Shown here piece by piece: positions 29,219 to 37,764 of a stretch of 64,000 nt of DNA; the first letter of the stretch is position 1, and each line of letters opens with the position of its first letter. A program made the translations under genes and the position numbers. The notes beneath the pieces are model-generated. The model was not told the origin of the DNA, searched no databases, and saw nothing but the letters and a program-made list of their open reading frames with translations. This DNA is from Bacilli bacterium (GTDB taxonomy: Bacteria; Bacillota_I; Bacilli_A; RF39; UBA660): NCBI GenBank assembly GCA_017612805.1, contig JAGAFD010000003.1, positions 62,001 through 126,000 of the forward strand. The letters are read 5' to 3'.

Positions 29219-29249
29219 AAATATATAGTAGAAAGTGTAGTTGATTGAT

Positions 29250-32200
29250 ATGGTAAAAAAATTATCAATAAAAATAATCCTTTCAATATTCTTGATAATA
29301 ATGTTTTCTTTTTCAATGATTGGAATTAGTAGGGCAGTATCTGATGCTAAACGTTTTGAAGTAACGGATGTTTCATTAGCAGAAAAATCCGAAACTACTG
29401 AAGCAGAAATAAATTTGGTGGAAGGTAAAATTGAAACTAATCTAACATTCCATAAGGTAAATGATTATGCTGTTTATAAAATAACATTCAAGAATAATGA
29501 TAATAAAGAATTCTTTATTAGATCAATTACCAATGATAATACTAATCCATACGTAACATATTCTTATGAACAAGAGCAAGATGATAACGTTAAATCTGGT
29601 GATACAGTTGATATATTACTTAAATTAACTTATAACAATGAAGTTAAAGATTTAAATAAACGTGATGTTCAAGAAACTGTTAAGTTTAACTTTGATATGC
29701 AAGACGAAGAAGGTAATATGGTATTATCTGATGAAAAAGTCAATTCGCGTTTAAGTGTTAATGTTTTAGAATATGCTATTTTAACTTTAGCGATATTAAT
29801 CGCTTTAGTGTTTATCTTTTTCAAAAGTAAAAAAGCTAGAAAAGCCGCTATTGCATGCTTAGTTTTATTAACGCCATTCATTGTTAAAGCGGTTGATTCA
29901 AGTTTTGAAATAGTTATTACAACGAATGTCAAACTTCATGATAAGATGGCAATGGTTGTTGAAGTAAACGGTAAGCAAGAAGTAATTGCGGTGCCATATG
30001 GTGAAGCCCCAAAAGTAGAATTGCCAGAACCAGAAAAAGAAGGTTATGACTTTGTTGGCTGGTTTGAAGAAGATAAGAAAAGTGAATATGATTTTGAAAA
30101 AGAAGTAGCAGAAGATATAAGCATTAAAGCTAAATATAAACCAATTGATTATACCATTAGTTATGATTATGATGGTGGTGAAGCTAAAAACCCAGTAACT
30201 TACAATATTGAAACTAATAGTATTACTTTAACTAATCCAACTAAAGAAGGTTATAGTTTTAGTGGATGGACTGGATCAAACGGTAAAACTTATCAAACTA
30301 GAGTTACTATCGATAAAGGTTCAATTGGTAACCTAACATTTACTGCCAATTTTTCAGCAAAAGAAGATACTAAATATACGGTAGTTCATAAATATAAAAA
30401 CTTAGAAGGTGATGGTTATTCTGAAGAATTCACCGAAGAATTAACTGGTACTACTGGAACAGTAGTAAAACCATCTACAAGAACCGTAACTGGTTTTGTT
30501 AATCCAAGTTTAAAGAACTTAACTATTGCTGGTGATGGTTCTTCTAAACTAGAATATATTTATGAAAGAAAAATGGTAACCCTTGCTTATTCCGAAGATG
30601 TTATTAGTAACAAACCAGCTGGTTCATATAAATATGGAACTCCTATTACAATTAATGCTAAAGATAAAGTAGGTTATACTTTTAAAGAATGGAGCTATAA
30701 TGCGGTTTTTATTCCTGCTTTTATTGATGCAGATAATAACAATGCAATTTCGGCTGGTGATATCGTAATTATTGGAACGGATTGGTTCTTTGTAATAGCA
30801 CCACCAGAAAATAGTCAAGTTAAATTAATAACTCGATTAGGTATTGATACTAATGGAAATCAATCAGAAACAGCTAATCAATATACTTTCTCATCGATGA
30901 TACAGATGAAATATTATTGGGAAGAAAATCCAAATGATTATTCTCCATTTGGCGATTCTTCTCATCCATATGTATATCGTACAACAATTAACCGTGATAG
31001 CATAGCCGGTGATCCGAATGTTACAGGTGCTGGTATTAATCAAATAGTCAATCATTATAAAGATAATTTAGACAATCTTGGAATAATATCAATAGTTGAT
31101 GCAAGATTAATGAGTTATGAAGAAGCAGAAGCATTAGGCTGTTCAAATGCTGATAAATCATGTCCTGAATTTATTAGTAATTATAGTTCGACTTGGCTTG
31201 GATCTGTTGGTGGTACTAATCCTCAATATATGTGGTATATCTGGAGAAAATTAGCTTTAGCAAGTTTAACTATGAATAGGTATTCTATTCGTCCAGTTAT
31301 AGTTGTTAATGAAAAAGATATATCCACTTTAAATAAAGTTAATTCGCTATCAACTTTCAATTTAGAAGATGATACTAATATAACTGCTATCTATAATCCA
31401 AATAAGAATACGCCATATACCGTAATTCATAAAATGCAAGATCAAGATGATGAAAGCGTTTATAATATTGTTGAAAGTATTGAAGGCACTGGTTTCACCG
31501 GTGATTTAATTCGCCCAATTGTTAATACTTCATATTATCATTATGGTGATTATATTCTTCCATATACGCAAACAGTTGAAATTGCTGCTGATGGATCAAC
31601 GGTAGTTGAATATGTATATCAATATAAATATTATAATATTACGTTAGATCCAAGTGGTGGTTATGTTAATACAGAATCTATAAAGGTTGAAAAAGGAAGT
31701 TCAATATCGGTATCTAATCCAAAATTATCCAATTACATATTTAAAGGATGGTATACTGAAGCAGAAGGGGGAACTTTAGTTGTTGAACCAAGTAAATCAT
31801 TTACTCCAACTAGAACTCAAACTCTATATGCTCATTGGGAATTTGATGCTTCTCCAAAGGGATTTTTAATTGATTATGATGATAATAATGCAGTGTCTAT
31901 TGGAGATGCTGTAAGAATTGGAAGCGATGATTTCTACTATATTGGAAGAGATGAAAACAATAATTTAAAATTATTAAGTAAATATAATTTAGAATCTGGT
32001 GATAATCGTCAAAAAGGAAAAAACAGTAATACTGTTGAAAGCCGCTGGTTCTTTTCACGTACGAATTATTGGCAAGATGAATCACTAGGTTATACTTTCA
32101 CAACCGAAGGTGATGGATCTTTATCATATGTATATCGTACATCCGAAAATCAAGCAGTACCTGAAAATAGTATAAACATTGTTAATTATGTATACTATCT

Positions 32201-33827
32201 TAGAGATTCACTTGGAGTAGATGTTATCGATGCTAGGTTAATGTCTTACAGTGAAGCAATAGCTGCGGGATGTGGTACTTCTAGTAGATGTCCTTCATTT
32301 ATGAATCCTCCATTTAATAATAGTTCTCCTTATTATTGGTTAGGTACAGTTGATTCTTCTTCTGGTAAAGTAGCAGTCATTTATTATAATGATGCGATAA
32401 ATCAATCATTCTTGAGATTCATAGATTATAATGTTAATTATACTGCCGTTCGTCCAGTTATTGTGGTACCTGAACGTCAAATATCAATGCCATGGGATAG
32501 TAATAAGATGGCTCATTTAGTTGATATAAATAATGATTCTGATTATTCAATCGGAGATAAAATAATAATAGGTGAAGAAGAATTTTACATTGTAGGTCGA
32601 AATTTTAATAAACATGAGTTGAATATATTGCCAAAATACAATATAAGTTATCATTACGGCAATTATGTTCAATCGTCAGATTCATCTGATGTAACGTTTT
32701 CAAGCTTCCCATATTGGAGCAGAGAGTATACGCCTAACATAGATAATTATCAGTATACTACTGATGATTCCGGTTATTATTATATGTATCGTGATAAATA
32801 TGGTAAAGCAGTACCTGAAAATAACTTAACTAATTATATTGAAAATTATGTTGATTATCTTCAATCTACATATTTAATTCATATAAAAGATGCAAAATTG
32901 ATGTCTTATAGTGAAGCAGTTAATTTGGGATGTAGTTTTGATGAAGAAAATACATGTCCAGAATATATGACTAATCAATCGTTTTGGCTTGGATCTATTG
33001 ATTATGACCCGGATTCTTCCGACAATCTAGACGAGGTAGTTTTTTACATAGATGAATATAATAATTGCATATGGATAAATGTTTATGATAGTGGTGCGGG
33101 TATCCGTCCGATGTTAACTATTTCCGAAAATGATGTTGAAATGTCATGGGGTAATACTAATAGAGCAGGTACTGAGGTTACGATTGGTAATGACGAGTTT
33201 TATATTATTGGTCAAGATGTTAATGGCAATTATAAGTTAATAACTAAATACAATTTGGATGCAAATTATCGCCAATCTGAAAGCAATAGTGTTGGAACTA
33301 TATTTGCAACAACTAATTATTGGAGTACCGGCGGAACTTCTAGTTCATCTGCATCTTCAAATAATGACTGTATTGACGCTTATTGTGACGGCTTTAGTGG
33401 TTATCGATATATTTATCGTGATAAAGATAATAAGGATGTTCCAGAAAACATAGTAAAAAATTATGTTAATAATTATGCTAATTATCTTAAAACAACATAT
33501 AATCTTGGTGTTATTGATGCAAGATTAATGAGCTATCGTGAGGCTAATTTATTAGGATGCTCTAATATACCTGCGTCTTGTCCGGATTATATTGGTACTA
33601 ATCCACCTTATTGGATTGGAAATTTAAGATCTAGTATTAGCATTTGGGCTATTTATGAAAAATGGAATTGTTATGGAACGGCAGCTTGTTCTGGTTCTCC
33701 TAATAATTACGCTGGTGGTAATCTATCTGCAGATTATTTTGAATATGGCGTTGGTGGTAGCCAATCTGAGATAGAAAATGGTATTCGTCCAGTAATCATT
33801 GTACCGGCATCGGCAGTTCCAAATTAA
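29250..33827 (+). CDS. Giant surface protein 1: InlB B-repeats plus repeated WLGS/GIRP modules
   Basis: A protein of about 1,525 residues. Residues 5-30 are a signal-anchor helix, 35-175 an Ig-like domain, and 178-196 plus 202-218 are two more hydrophobic segments around a basic KSKKARK loop. Then come Flg_new/InlB-type repeats (GYDFVGWFEE..., GYSFSGWTGS...), a MucBP-like segment (YTVVHKYKNLEG...) and four ~200-residue modules (from about 491, 870, 1093 and 1311). Each module reads IGxDxFYxIG, NYW, YVYR, DARLMSYxEA, a Cys-rich hinge, FWLGS and GIRPVI. The first interrupts an InlB repeat. No LPxTG anchor is present. Start ATG 29250 or TTG 29241. Confidence 0.85.
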   Translation: MVKKLSIKIILSIFLIIMFSFSMIGISRAVSDAKRFEVTDVSLAEKSETTEAEINLVEGKIETNLTFHKVNDYAVYKITFKNNDNKEFFIRSITNDNTNPYVTYSYEQEQDDNVKSGDTVDILLKLTYNNEVKDLNKRDVQETVKFNFDMQDEEGNMVLSDEKVNSRLSVNVLEYAILTLAILIALVFIFFKSKKARKAAIACLVLLTPFIVKAVDSSFEIVITTNVKLHDKMAMVVEVNGKQEVIAVPYGEAPKVELPEPEKEGYDFVGWFEEDKKSEYDFEKEVAEDISIKAKYKPIDYTISYDYDGGEAKNPVTYNIETNSITLTNPTKEGYSFSGWTGSNGKTYQTRVTIDKGSIGNLTFTANFSAKEDTKYTVVHKYKNLEGDGYSEEFTEELTGTTGTVVKPSTRTVTGFVNPSLKNLTIAGDGSSKLEYIYERKMVTLAYSEDVISNKPAGSYKYGTPITINAKDKVGYTFKEWSYNAVFIPAFIDADNNNAISAGDIVIIGTDWFFVIAPPENSQVKLITRLGIDTNGNQSETANQYTFSSMIQMKYYWEENPNDYSPFGDSSHPYVYRTTINRDSIAGDPNVTGAGINQIVNHYKDNLDNLGIISIVDARLMSYEEAEALGCSNADKSCPEFISNYSSTWLGSVGGTNPQYMWYIWRKLALASLTMNRYSIRPVIVVNEKDISTLNKVNSLSTFNLEDDTNITAIYNPNKNTPYTVIHKMQDQDDESVYNIVESIEGTGFTGDLIRPIVNTSYYHYGDYILPYTQTVEIAADGSTVVEYVYQYKYYNITLDPSGGYVNTESIKVEKGSSISVSNPKLSNYIFKGWYTEAEGGTLVVEPSKSFTPTRTQTLYAHWEFDASPKGFLIDYDDNNAVSIGDAVRIGSDDFYYIGRDENNNLKLLSKYNLESGDNRQKGKNSNTVESRWFFSRTNYWQDESLGYTFTTEGDGSLSYVYRTSENQAVPENSINIVNYVYYLRDSLGVDVIDARLMSYSEAIAAGCGTSSRCPSFMNPPFNNSSPYYWLGTVDSSSGKVAVIYYNDAINQSFLRFIDYNVNYTAVRPVIVVPERQISMPWDSNKMAHLVDINNDSDYSIGDKIIIGEEEFYIVGRNFNKHELNILPKYNISYHYGNYVQSSDSSDVTFSSFPYWSREYTPNIDNYQYTTDDSGYYYMYRDKYGKAVPENNLTNYIENYVDYLQSTYLIHIKDAKLMSYSEAVNLGCSFDEENTCPEYMTNQSFWLGSIDYDPDSSDNLDEVVFYIDEYNNCIWINVYDSGAGIRPMLTISENDVEMSWGNTNRAGTEVTIGNDEFYIIGQDVNGNYKLITKYNLDANYRQSESNSVGTIFATTNYWSTGGTSSSSASSNNDCIDAYCDGFSGYRYIYRDKDNKDVPENIVKNYVNNYANYLKTTYNLGVIDARLMSYREANLLGCSNIPASCPDYIGTNPPYWIGNLRSSISIWAIYEKWNCYGTAACSGSPNNYAGGNLSADYFEYGVGGSQSEIENGIRPVIIVPASAVPN

Positions 33828-33921: not shown

Positions 33922-36900
33922 ATGATTAATATGTTTAAAAAAATAGCATTTAAAAAAGTTTTAACAGTATGTTTACTTTTATTATATGCATCAGCAATTA
34001 TTATTATCAGTCGAATTGATAAAGTAGCTGCTGATATTAAAGTGTTTCAACTTGTTAATGCGAAGATAGCTGAAAAATCAGAAAAAGCTCAAGTAGATGT
34101 TAAATTTAATGAAAAAACAGTTAATACTAATTTTACATTTCATCAAGTAAATGATTATATTATTTATAATTTAACTTTTAAAAATAATGATAAGAAAGAT
34201 TATATTATTAAGGAAATATATGATGATAATGAAAATCCTTATGTAATTTATTCTTATGATCAATTTAAAGATAAAAAAATTAAGGCTGGTGGAACAATCA
34301 CCATACCTGTTAAAATAACTTACGATTCGGAAGTAAATGATTTAGATAAACGTCATATTTCAGATAGTGTTAAATTCTCATTTAATATTATGGATAAAGA
34401 AGGAAATATGGTTATTGCTAACTCACCAACTAATTCGCGTTTAGTTCAAAATATTATTGGGTGGGCGATATTAGCAATCGTCGTTTTAATTGTTGTTATT
34501 ATCTTGATTGTACGAAACAAAAAGAAAAATAAAGCAATCCCAAGTATGTTAGTTTTATCACTATTTTTAATACCAATTATTACTCATGCGGTTGATTCTA
34601 GTTATGATTTAACTTTAAAAGCCAATATTAAATTACATGATAAATTAGCTATGACGGTTGTTCAAGATGGTAAGGAAGAAGTCATTGCCGTTCCTTTTGG
34701 TGAAACGCCAGAAATTCCTGAAGAACCAGTTAAAAAAGGTTATGAATTTGTTGGTTGGTATGCTGATGATGAAGAATATGATTTTGATTCTGAAGTTTCT
34801 GAAGATATTGAATTAACTGCAAAATATAAAATCAATAATTATAGTATTAGTTATAATTTAGACGAAGGAACAGTAGCTAAAGCTAATCCAACAAATTATA
34901 ATGTAGAATCAAAAAGTATTACGCTTAATAATCCAACTAAAGAAGGTTATAGTTTTAGTGGTTGGACTGGATCAAATGGTAAAGCATATCAAACAAGGGT
35001 TACTATTGATACTGGTACAGTAGGAGATTTAACTTTTACTGCTAATTTCTCACCAAGAACTGATATTCCTTATACCGTTGTTCATAAATATAAGAATTAT
35101 AATGGTGATGGTTATGATGATGTATATGTAGAAAAATTAGTTGGCTCTACTGATTCAATTGTTCAACCAGCACCAAGACCAATTGATGGATATGTTAATC
35201 CTTCACTTAAAAATTTAAAAATAACCCTTGATGGAAAAGCATCAATTGAATATATCTATGAAAGAGCTTTTTATACTTTATCGTATAATAGTGATGTTAT
35301 TAGTAATAGAGCTCCAGGTTTATATAAATATGGCACAACAGTTGCTGTTAGTGCTATTGATAAAGTCGGGTATACCTTTAATAAATGGGGTATAAATGTT
35401 GAAAGTGTTCCTGCATTTATTGATATGGATGGTAATAATAGTATTACTGTCGGTGATATTGTTACCATTGGTTCAGAATGGTTTTATGTAGCATTACCAG
35501 TTGAAAATGGTGAAGTAAAACTATTACCTAAATATAATGTTGATAAAGATGGTCGCCAAAATATTGATGCTAAAAAAACTACATTTAGTAACACAAATTA
35601 TTGGGATTATGGTAATCCTAATGCATATAGTTCACCAATATATGCTTATACAACTGAAACAGACCGTTATGGGTATAATTTAAATCTTTTATATTCAACT
35701 ATAACTAAATATAAAGATTATTTAAATAGTATTAGTAAGATTACTATAAAAGAAGCACGACCAATGAAATTTAATGAAGCAATAAGTATGAAACAAACTT
35801 ATGGTTTCTGTCCAGTAACTGATGATTCACAAAGCTTCTGGACTGGGTCAGTATTTAATCGCTCTCATGCATATGCAGTTCGTATAAATTGTTCAACATC
35901 ATATTATAATGCCAAAACTTCTTTATATGGTATTCGTCCATTAATAATTATTAATGAGACAGATATTTCAATTTTAAATGAAACAAGTTCTGTATCATCA
36001 TTTACTATGAATGGTAATGTCAATCTTGTTCCATCATATAAACCAAATAAGAATACTCCATATTCAGTTGTTCATAAAAAACAAGATATGGATGATGAAA
36101 CTGTTTATGTAATAGCTGATAGGGAAGATAAAACTGGAATTACTGGTGATGTTATTCGTCCGTCAGTTAAGAATAATTATGGATCTAATTATACAATTCC
36201 ATCTTCCCAAACAGTTAGTATTGCCGCTGATGGATCAACTGTAGTAGAGTATATTTATAATTATAAATATTATAATATTACCCTAAATCCAAATGGTGGA
36301 ACAGTTAATAATGAATCGATTAAAGTTACTAAAGGAAGCGCAGTTTCATTATCAACCCCAATACTTGTTGGTTTTACATTCGTAGGATGGTATACTGAAG
36401 CAGAAGGCGGAACTTTAGTTGTTGGACCAGACGAATCATTTACGCCAACTAGTAGTCAAACTTTATATGCTCATTGGGAGAAAGCCCCAGCAACTGTCTC
36501 AATATATGCAGTAGATACCGATGGAGATAGAGTACTATCATCTGGTGATAAAGTAGTAATAGGTGATGATGTATTTTATTATGTTAGTAAGGATGGTAAT
36601 ACTAATAACATAAAACTAATTGCGAAATATGTACTTGATTATAATGATCGCCAAACAGCTAATAAAGATGATTTTTATACTACAGCGTTTGCAAGCGCTA
36701 GGTATTGGGAAAGTGGATATACCTCAGATGAAGACTATTCGTTTTCAACTGATGAAGATGGTGAATATATGATCTATAGAACCAATAAAAATCAAGATAT
36801 CTCTGAAAACCGCTTAACCAATCATGTTAATAATTATGCTGAATATCTAAGAATTACTTATAACATTAATTTAATTGATGCAAGAATACCTTATTATTAT

Positions 36901-37764
36901 GAAACTTATGCTATGATGACAATGGAACATGATTATCATGATTATACTACTCAATCGCATTGGCTTGGATCTATTGATTGCTTAGAAAATAATTGTCAAG
37001 TTTATTATTATGGCCCTGATGATATATATATGGATTTACTTAGTCCTTGGAATGCTAATACTGCTGGAATTCGACCTTTAGTTATTATTCCTGAAGAAAT
37101 AGTTAGTATTCCATGGGGTTCTACTGAAGATGCTGGTAGTGAAGTAACGATTGGTAATGATATATTCTATATTGTTGGTAAAGATTATAATGGAAATATA
37201 AAACTATTACCTAAATATAATTTAGATAGTAATTATCGTCAATCAGAAGCTAATGCTGTTACATTACAGTTTTCTACAACGAATTATTGGGCAACTACTG
37301 GAAGTTCAAATGCTGAAGTTCCAGAAACTGCATGCTATGATGCATATTGTGAAAAAACAGAGTATTTTAGATATGTATACCGAGATATTGAAAATAACGA
37401 TGTTTCTGATAATAATTTAACAATTTATGTTAATAACTATGCAAGTTATTTGAAAACTACATATAATCTTGATGTTATTGATGCAAGATTAATGAGTTAT
37501 GGTGAAGCAATATTATTAGGATGTAATTATGAAAGTGGTTCATGTCCATCATATATTACAAGTCATTCTTTCTGGCTTGGAACTATGTTTAGTGAACGTG
37601 GTATATGGCATGTTAACCAACCGAAAGTAAGTCTTATTACAGGTGGAAACACATATCAAAACATAATGAGTGATCATTATGATGATCTTGAAGTGATTAA
37701 TTACCTAAATTTAGGGGTTCGTCCACTAATTATTGTTCCACCATCAGCAATTCAAAATCATTAA
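33922..37764 (+). CDS. Giant surface protein 2, paralogue of surface protein 1
   Basis: A 1,280-residue paralogue with the same architecture: signal-anchor, Ig-like domain, two hydrophobic segments near 176-197 and 203-224, InlB repeats, a MucBP-like segment and three WLGS/GIRP modules (from about 498, 858 and 1072) instead of four. The first module is again inserted in an InlB repeat. Its last module is strikingly similar to the last module of protein 1 (NYWxTxG, YVNNYASYLKTTYNL, DARLMSY), suggesting duplication or gene conversion. The stop is directly before its terminator. ATG 33922 and ATG 33931 are both possible. Confidence 0.85.
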   Translation: MINMFKKIAFKKVLTVCLLLLYASAIIIISRIDKVAADIKVFQLVNAKIAEKSEKAQVDVKFNEKTVNTNFTFHQVNDYIIYNLTFKNNDKKDYIIKEIYDDNENPYVIYSYDQFKDKKIKAGGTITIPVKITYDSEVNDLDKRHISDSVKFSFNIMDKEGNMVIANSPTNSRLVQNIIGWAILAIVVLIVVIILIVRNKKKNKAIPSMLVLSLFLIPIITHAVDSSYDLTLKANIKLHDKLAMTVVQDGKEEVIAVPFGETPEIPEEPVKKGYEFVGWYADDEEYDFDSEVSEDIELTAKYKINNYSISYNLDEGTVAKANPTNYNVESKSITLNNPTKEGYSFSGWTGSNGKAYQTRVTIDTGTVGDLTFTANFSPRTDIPYTVVHKYKNYNGDGYDDVYVEKLVGSTDSIVQPAPRPIDGYVNPSLKNLKITLDGKASIEYIYERAFYTLSYNSDVISNRAPGLYKYGTTVAVSAIDKVGYTFNKWGINVESVPAFIDMDGNNSITVGDIVTIGSEWFYVALPVENGEVKLLPKYNVDKDGRQNIDAKKTTFSNTNYWDYGNPNAYSSPIYAYTTETDRYGYNLNLLYSTITKYKDYLNSISKITIKEARPMKFNEAISMKQTYGFCPVTDDSQSFWTGSVFNRSHAYAVRINCSTSYYNAKTSLYGIRPLIIINETDISILNETSSVSSFTMNGNVNLVPSYKPNKNTPYSVVHKKQDMDDETVYVIADREDKTGITGDVIRPSVKNNYGSNYTIPSSQTVSIAADGSTVVEYIYNYKYYNITLNPNGGTVNNESIKVTKGSAVSLSTPILVGFTFVGWYTEAEGGTLVVGPDESFTPTSSQTLYAHWEKAPATVSIYAVDTDGDRVLSSGDKVVIGDDVFYYVSKDGNTNNIKLIAKYVLDYNDRQTANKDDFYTTAFASARYWESGYTSDEDYSFSTDEDGEYMIYRTNKNQDISENRLTNHVNNYAEYLRITYNINLIDARIPYYYETYAMMTMEHDYHDYTTQSHWLGSIDCLENNCQVYYYGPDDIYMDLLSPWNANTAGIRPLVIIPEEIVSIPWGSTEDAGSEVTIGNDIFYIVGKDYNGNIKLLPKYNLDSNYRQSEANAVTLQFSTTNYWATTGSSNAEVPETACYDAYCEKTEYFRYVYRDIENNDVSDNNLTIYVNNYASYLKTTYNLDVIDARLMSYGEAILLGCNYESGSCPSYITSHSFWLGTMFSERGIWHVNQPKVSLITGGNTYQNIMSDHYDDLEVINYLNLGVRPLIIVPPSAIQNH

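Follow-up and report, generated by a model that had tools for sequence, protein, structure and literature searches.

The third InlB B-repeat (B3) of each of two neighbouring surface proteins, P1 and P2, is shown at the level of sequence to be split by one complete module of about 200 amino acids, and related proteins in other genera, compared in the same way, are shown to keep B3 unbroken; the empty site is thus seen. P1 and P2 are probably anchored in the membrane and extend outside the cell as rods built of B-repeats and MucBP-like domains, in which a C-type-lectin-like module nested in the B3 loop would form a side binding head.

Genes and domain layout

The two genes lie adjacent on the same strand of the window—the whole stretch of 64,000 nucleotides analysed here, from an uncultured gut-type bacterium—and encode large surface proteins that are tandem paralogues: P1 (29241–33827, + strand; 1528 aa) and P2 (33922–37764, + strand; 1280 aa). 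Immediately upstream are glycosyltransferases, an O-antigen-ligase-like protein and a Stealth protein, and immediately downstream is an epimerase. P1 opens with an N-terminal domain and a membrane hairpin, followed by the uninterrupted repeats B1 (29943–30143) and B2 (30147–30356), a MucBP-like domain (30360–30563, residues 374–441), B3 with the inserted module M1, a second MucBP-like domain (31401–31625, residues 721–795), the uninterrupted repeat B4 (31626–31844), and three modules in tandem that are not nested—M2 (31866–32489), M3 (32517–33140) and M4 (33141–33821)—all on the + strand. P2 has the same order minus one module, ending in two tandem modules (M2, 36511–37107; M3, 37108–37758; both + strand) against the three of P1. 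B1, B2 and B4 are ordinary members of the InlB B-repeat family (PF09479 Flg_new / PF18998 Flg_new_2). The label MucBP-like comes from repeat alignment and weak fold matches and carries no Pfam score; for the domain preceding B3 in P1 it rests on the P1–P2 alignment and weak MucBP fold matches.

Sequence evidence for a split B3

The first part of the P1 repeat (30564–30701, + strand, residues 442–487) ends in ...GYTFKEWSYN, module M1 occupies 30720–31325 (+ strand, residues 494–695), and the second part follows at 31344–31400 (+ strand, residues 702–720; SLSTFNLEDDTNITAIYNP), with linkers at residues 488–493 before the module and 696–701 after it. The corresponding parts of P2 are 35260–35397 (residues 447–492), module M1 at 35416–35970 (residues 499–683), and 35989–36045 (residues 690–708), all on the + strand. 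An earlier note on this DNA had described the third B-repeat of P1 as interrupted by a module of about 200 residues, running from FIDADNNN to KDIS, after which the repeat resumes, with an interruption at the same place in the paralogue; the sequences that it quoted are present, in frame and correctly placed, and the P2 layout agrees with its reading. The span that it gave to the feature, 29944–31425, does contain the split repeat with the module inside; B1, B2 and one MucBP-like domain fall within it as well.

When the flanks of B3 are joined, PF18998 matches them continuously over profile positions 15–72 of 73, at 35.7 bits in P1 and 38.4 bits in P2, both above the cut-off of 23.6. With the first half alone the match stops at profile position 44 and scores 27.0 bits in P1 and 23.7 bits in P2. 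A general B-repeat profile applied with untrimmed linkers gave a weaker separation, about 1–3% of controls reaching the joined score, and a B3-subtype profile was therefore built from 14 uninterrupted repeats of other genomes. Using this profile, the score of P1 rises from 48.8 to 61.7 bits once the 19-residue second part is joined, a value equalled by none of 2113 other segments of P1 and P2 and by 3 of 2000 shuffles; that of P2 rises from 33.7 to 39.9 bits, equalled by 25 of 2113 other segments (1.2%) and by 9 of 2000 shuffles.

Unbroken B3 repeats in related proteins

Homologues of the N-terminal domain were found in 30 of 150 sampled genera of the family. The closest is encoded in genome G361 (RUG14709; locus L044, on the same contig as L076); it has the N-terminal domain of P1 and P2 and the same B1-B2-MucBP-B3 order, its B3 is intact (residues 438–502, profile positions 1–70), and its sole module is C-terminal. 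B3-type repeats are likewise unbroken in L118, L120, L122, L125, L128, L129, L130 and L132. The unbroken B3 of the homologues is closed by a TFxLxxxxxIxPxYxP segment, with a MucBP-like domain right after it. MucBP-like neighbours served as anchors in aligning the B-repeats and nested fragments. The homologous proteins compared, about 21 in number, contain some 113 B-repeats, of which only B3 of P1 and B3 of P2 are interrupted by a domain.

The N-terminal region of L044/L076 corresponds by homology to window positions 29241–29939. Two membrane segments lie in mid-protein in this orthologue, with the B-repeats after them, and a sortase-like PKTGD motif stands before the first segment; in P1 and P2 both segments are retained and the motif is missing.

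A wider search was made with the nested region as query. Among the best five candidates per genome in 386 other genomes of the family, the matches listed cover either the flanks or the module, and the one other genome of the genus gave no match. Two matches seemed to span the junction, and both were rejected as nested cases on reading: that in G324 is an intact repeat, and that in G306 is a module in a pilin-like fragment. Residues 692–727 of L130, considered as a half repeat, are instead a divergent intact repeat. A search for related loci found none with query A2; query A3 found five genome loci and none among viral contigs.

The inserted module

No Pfam or NCBIfam model covers the module. 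Its structure was modelled via a homologue from L075, with 12 relatives, giving a model with pLDDT 88.9 and pTM 0.86. In the PDB the top match is to Legionella Lcl, in its C-terminal domain (8q4e; prob 0.93, TM 0.57 by target, E 0.058), and further matches are to fimbrial and C-type-lectin chains, all PDB matches having E > 0.001; among viral models the top match is to a DUF6273 protein (prob 1.00, E 3.7e-5, TM 0.58 by query). A C-type-lectin-like fold of the DUF6273/DUF1566 kind is thereby strongly indicated for the module, the fold being recognised on the homologue and with weak PDB E-values. Module and DUF6273 have a common signature, a closing WLxS...G[IV]xP, and the modules of the window carry a GC...CP cysteine pair. 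All seven of these modules miss the PF19789 gathering cut-off (the best E, 0.014, being reached by one of the seven), and hhalign places module and DUF6273 together at a probability of 1% (E 0.049, C-terminal part only); this linkage is too weak for the module to be counted as a member of DUF6273 (PF19789). DUF6273 itself is present in 74 of 117 sampled genomes of the family, with up to 25 copies in one; the window's own genome has no PF19789 match, and there are seven GIRP modules there instead.

An EF-hand-like loop is present in five of the seven modules of the window, always at the module start (0.2 expected in shuffled sequence), and none was found elsewhere in P1 and P2. That of P1 M1 lies at 30726–30761 (+ strand; DADNNNAISAGD). 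The last module of each protein—P1 M4 and P2 M3—is without the loop, and these two are more closely related to each other than to any other module (55% identity, support 99/98).

Relatives of the module are found C-terminally in pilin-like proteins (L045, L046), adjoining B-repeats and DUF6273 domains (L047, with DUF6273 neighbours also in L050), and fused to GH3 glycosidase-like domains (L051, L052). This distribution over pilin-like, GH3-like and B-repeat proteins is as expected for a portable binding domain. In L045 and L046 (G225; L075, L077) the module family is C-terminal in type IV pilin-like proteins (FTLIELLAIIVILAIIAVI...), a domain order suggesting modular pilins with lectin-like heads. 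In L051 (ORF from ~3648) and L052 (ORF from ~3170) the modules adjoin other GVRP-ending domains.

Contig C1 of the window's own genome (G000) encodes a reverse transcriptase with a DGR-type motif (IGNYTSQ, YMDD; L074:369–1418), has a template-repeat-like stretch just upstream of it (L074:138–248), and starts inside the apparent end of a variable repeat. These features likely belong to a diversity-generating retroelement whose target gene is cut by the contig end. Compared with P1, P2 and the rest of the window, the template-like stretch gave no significant match, and the modules were accordingly rejected as DGR variable regions.

Insertion site and predicted structure

Alignment to InlB places the insertion about 3 residues past the GYxFxxW strand, which is β-3. 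The β-3 strand and loop of InlB comprise residues 354–372, which are not clearly visible in the density of one crystal chain (PMC8900821), and the insertion site therefore corresponds to a flexible loop in the known InlB structure. The B-repeat of InlB (structures 2y5p and 7nms) has a short loop at this place, whereas B3 of P1 and P2 is discontinuous in sequence.

The nested region of P1 was modelled, a check that the earlier note had proposed. In both flanks of the insert, strands are predicted at the positions that a B-repeat requires (residues 479–485, 705–707 and 712–720), with moderate confidence; the pTM of the whole is only 0.48, low-confidence stretches of M1 are at 182–210, 221–230 and 282–312, and a fold search with the whole nested-region model gave no significant match. 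The module is most likely an adhesive side-branch, around which B3 would close.

Identity between P1 and P2 falls to 32% in the second part of B3, compared with 57% in the first part and 60–71% in the other B-repeats; this second part may thus be under relaxed constraint, and a relaxed or broken B3 is possible. The stronger form of this reading is that the insertion broke B3, its halves serving as linkers that flank the module in an arrangement kept by descent. We regard this as unlikely. It would account for the second half being the least conserved piece of the pair, for the modest joined score of P2 (39.9 bits, equalled by 1.2% of random segments) and for model confidence that is only moderate near the junctions; however, both halves still hold the positions of the intact-repeat profile after the duplication, the first half is conserved about as well as its neighbours, and strands are predicted on both flanks.

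It is very improbable that there is no nesting, with the segment after the module belonging to the module or to the next MucBP-like domain and the first half being a truncated repeat. The second part is indeed short (19 aa) and scores by itself 12.7 bits in P1 and 6.4 bits in P2, but the tandem modules M2–M4 and the homologues stop at GIRP...IxVxE, without any such segment, and the unbroken B3 of the homologues closes with the same TFxLxxxxxIxPxYxP segment.

History of the insertion

The position of the insertion is identical in P1 and P2, and the junction linkers are conserved (PAFIDxDxNN before the module, DISxLN after it). Because site and linkers are shared, we infer one insertion ahead of the P1/P2 duplication, and a single event predating the tandem duplication that gave the two genes is most likely on these alignments. 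The earlier note had suggested that the module can be accepted in a loop of the repeat, its presence in both copies being part of the case; insertion in the loop after β-3 agrees with the suggestion, and the two copies do not count as independent acceptances if one event is the simplest account. The module tree neither shows nor rejects a single insertion: the C-terminal modules group together with bootstrap values of 93–94, below the threshold of 95, and the two M1 copies fall outside that group on long branches with support of 57/12. Independent insertions of related modules into the same loop of P1 and P2 are most improbable, for although the tree gives no sister pairing of the M1 copies, and their branches are long, their position is identical, their junction linkers are conserved, they are 40% identical to each other, and they sit in tandem paralogues of otherwise matching order.

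Proposed working of P1 and P2

In C-type-lectin-like domains the N- and C-termini lie next to each other. An insert of this kind would be tolerated, with B3 still able to close, because the adjoining ends suit a hairpin loop. We propose that the module entered the loop after β-3 of B3 once, ahead of the tandem duplication, and that it would now project sideways from the rod at B3 as a putative binding head, with the remaining modules, in tandem at the far end, as heads at the rod tip. The EF-hand-like loop at the module entry, putatively Ca2+-binding, may stiffen the junction. The stretch from WLGS to GIRP is the most variable between module copies, and may form a putative binding surface for a glycan or a protein carried by host or neighbouring cells. 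A bolder extension seems doubtful: that whole domains naturally dock in the loop after β-3 in InlB B-repeats, and that the nested module, with a Ca2+-binding entry loop, turns B3 into a side-arm, the position of which, and hence adhesion, would depend on calcium or on tension along the rod.

Comparison with known systems

In RrgA, the tip adhesin of the Streptococcus pneumoniae pilus-1, and in GBS104 and Mfa5, a stalk domain harbours a nested VWA domain (PMC5333627, PMC7835359). P1 and P2 resemble these surface adhesins in that a guest domain interrupts a stalk domain between strands, the sequence before and after the guest each supplying one half of the host; they differ in both partners, the host being a beta-grasp-like B-repeat and the guest predicted to be C-type-lectin-like, and no VWA domain was matched in P1 or P2. 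Judged from the sequences and the empty site, the nesting works like that of the RrgA type, and no homology is claimed.

DUF6273 (PF19789) is a C-type-lectin-like domain and a DGR target in phages (PMC10743442, PMC11792537), the fold of the phage proteins that contain it having been assigned from AlphaFold models (PMC10743442). The module is like DUF6273 in its predicted fold and its W-L-x-S...G-[IV]-x-P closing, and both are found in the L047 and L050 proteins; unlike DUF6273, the modules of the window score below the Pfam cut-off. The C-terminal domain of Lcl (8q4e, DUF1566) binds glycosaminoglycans (PMC11162425) and is the best solved-structure match of the module homologue, at an E-value of only 0.058. 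Lcl is trimeric and carries this domain at the tip of a collagen-like stalk; the P1/P2 module is known from its sequence and predicted fold.

The nesting in P1 and P2 is a real and rare domain insertion, and the design of a nested binding domain is already known in other adhesins. The word unusual, used of it in the earlier note, fits within the B-repeat family, where P1 and P2 stand alone among the repeats compared, and does not extend to the general design, which RrgA, GBS104 and Mfa5 have too. In the literature searched we came across no InlB B-repeat described as hosting a nested domain, which does not prove that none exists.

Many bacterial surface proteins contain B-repeats, and little is understood about these repeats. 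A natural insertion together with a visible empty site shows which loop of a B-repeat can carry a whole domain. The nesting in P1 and P2 explains how rods of B-repeats can branch, and it points to a family of C-type-lectin-like modules so far absent from Pfam.
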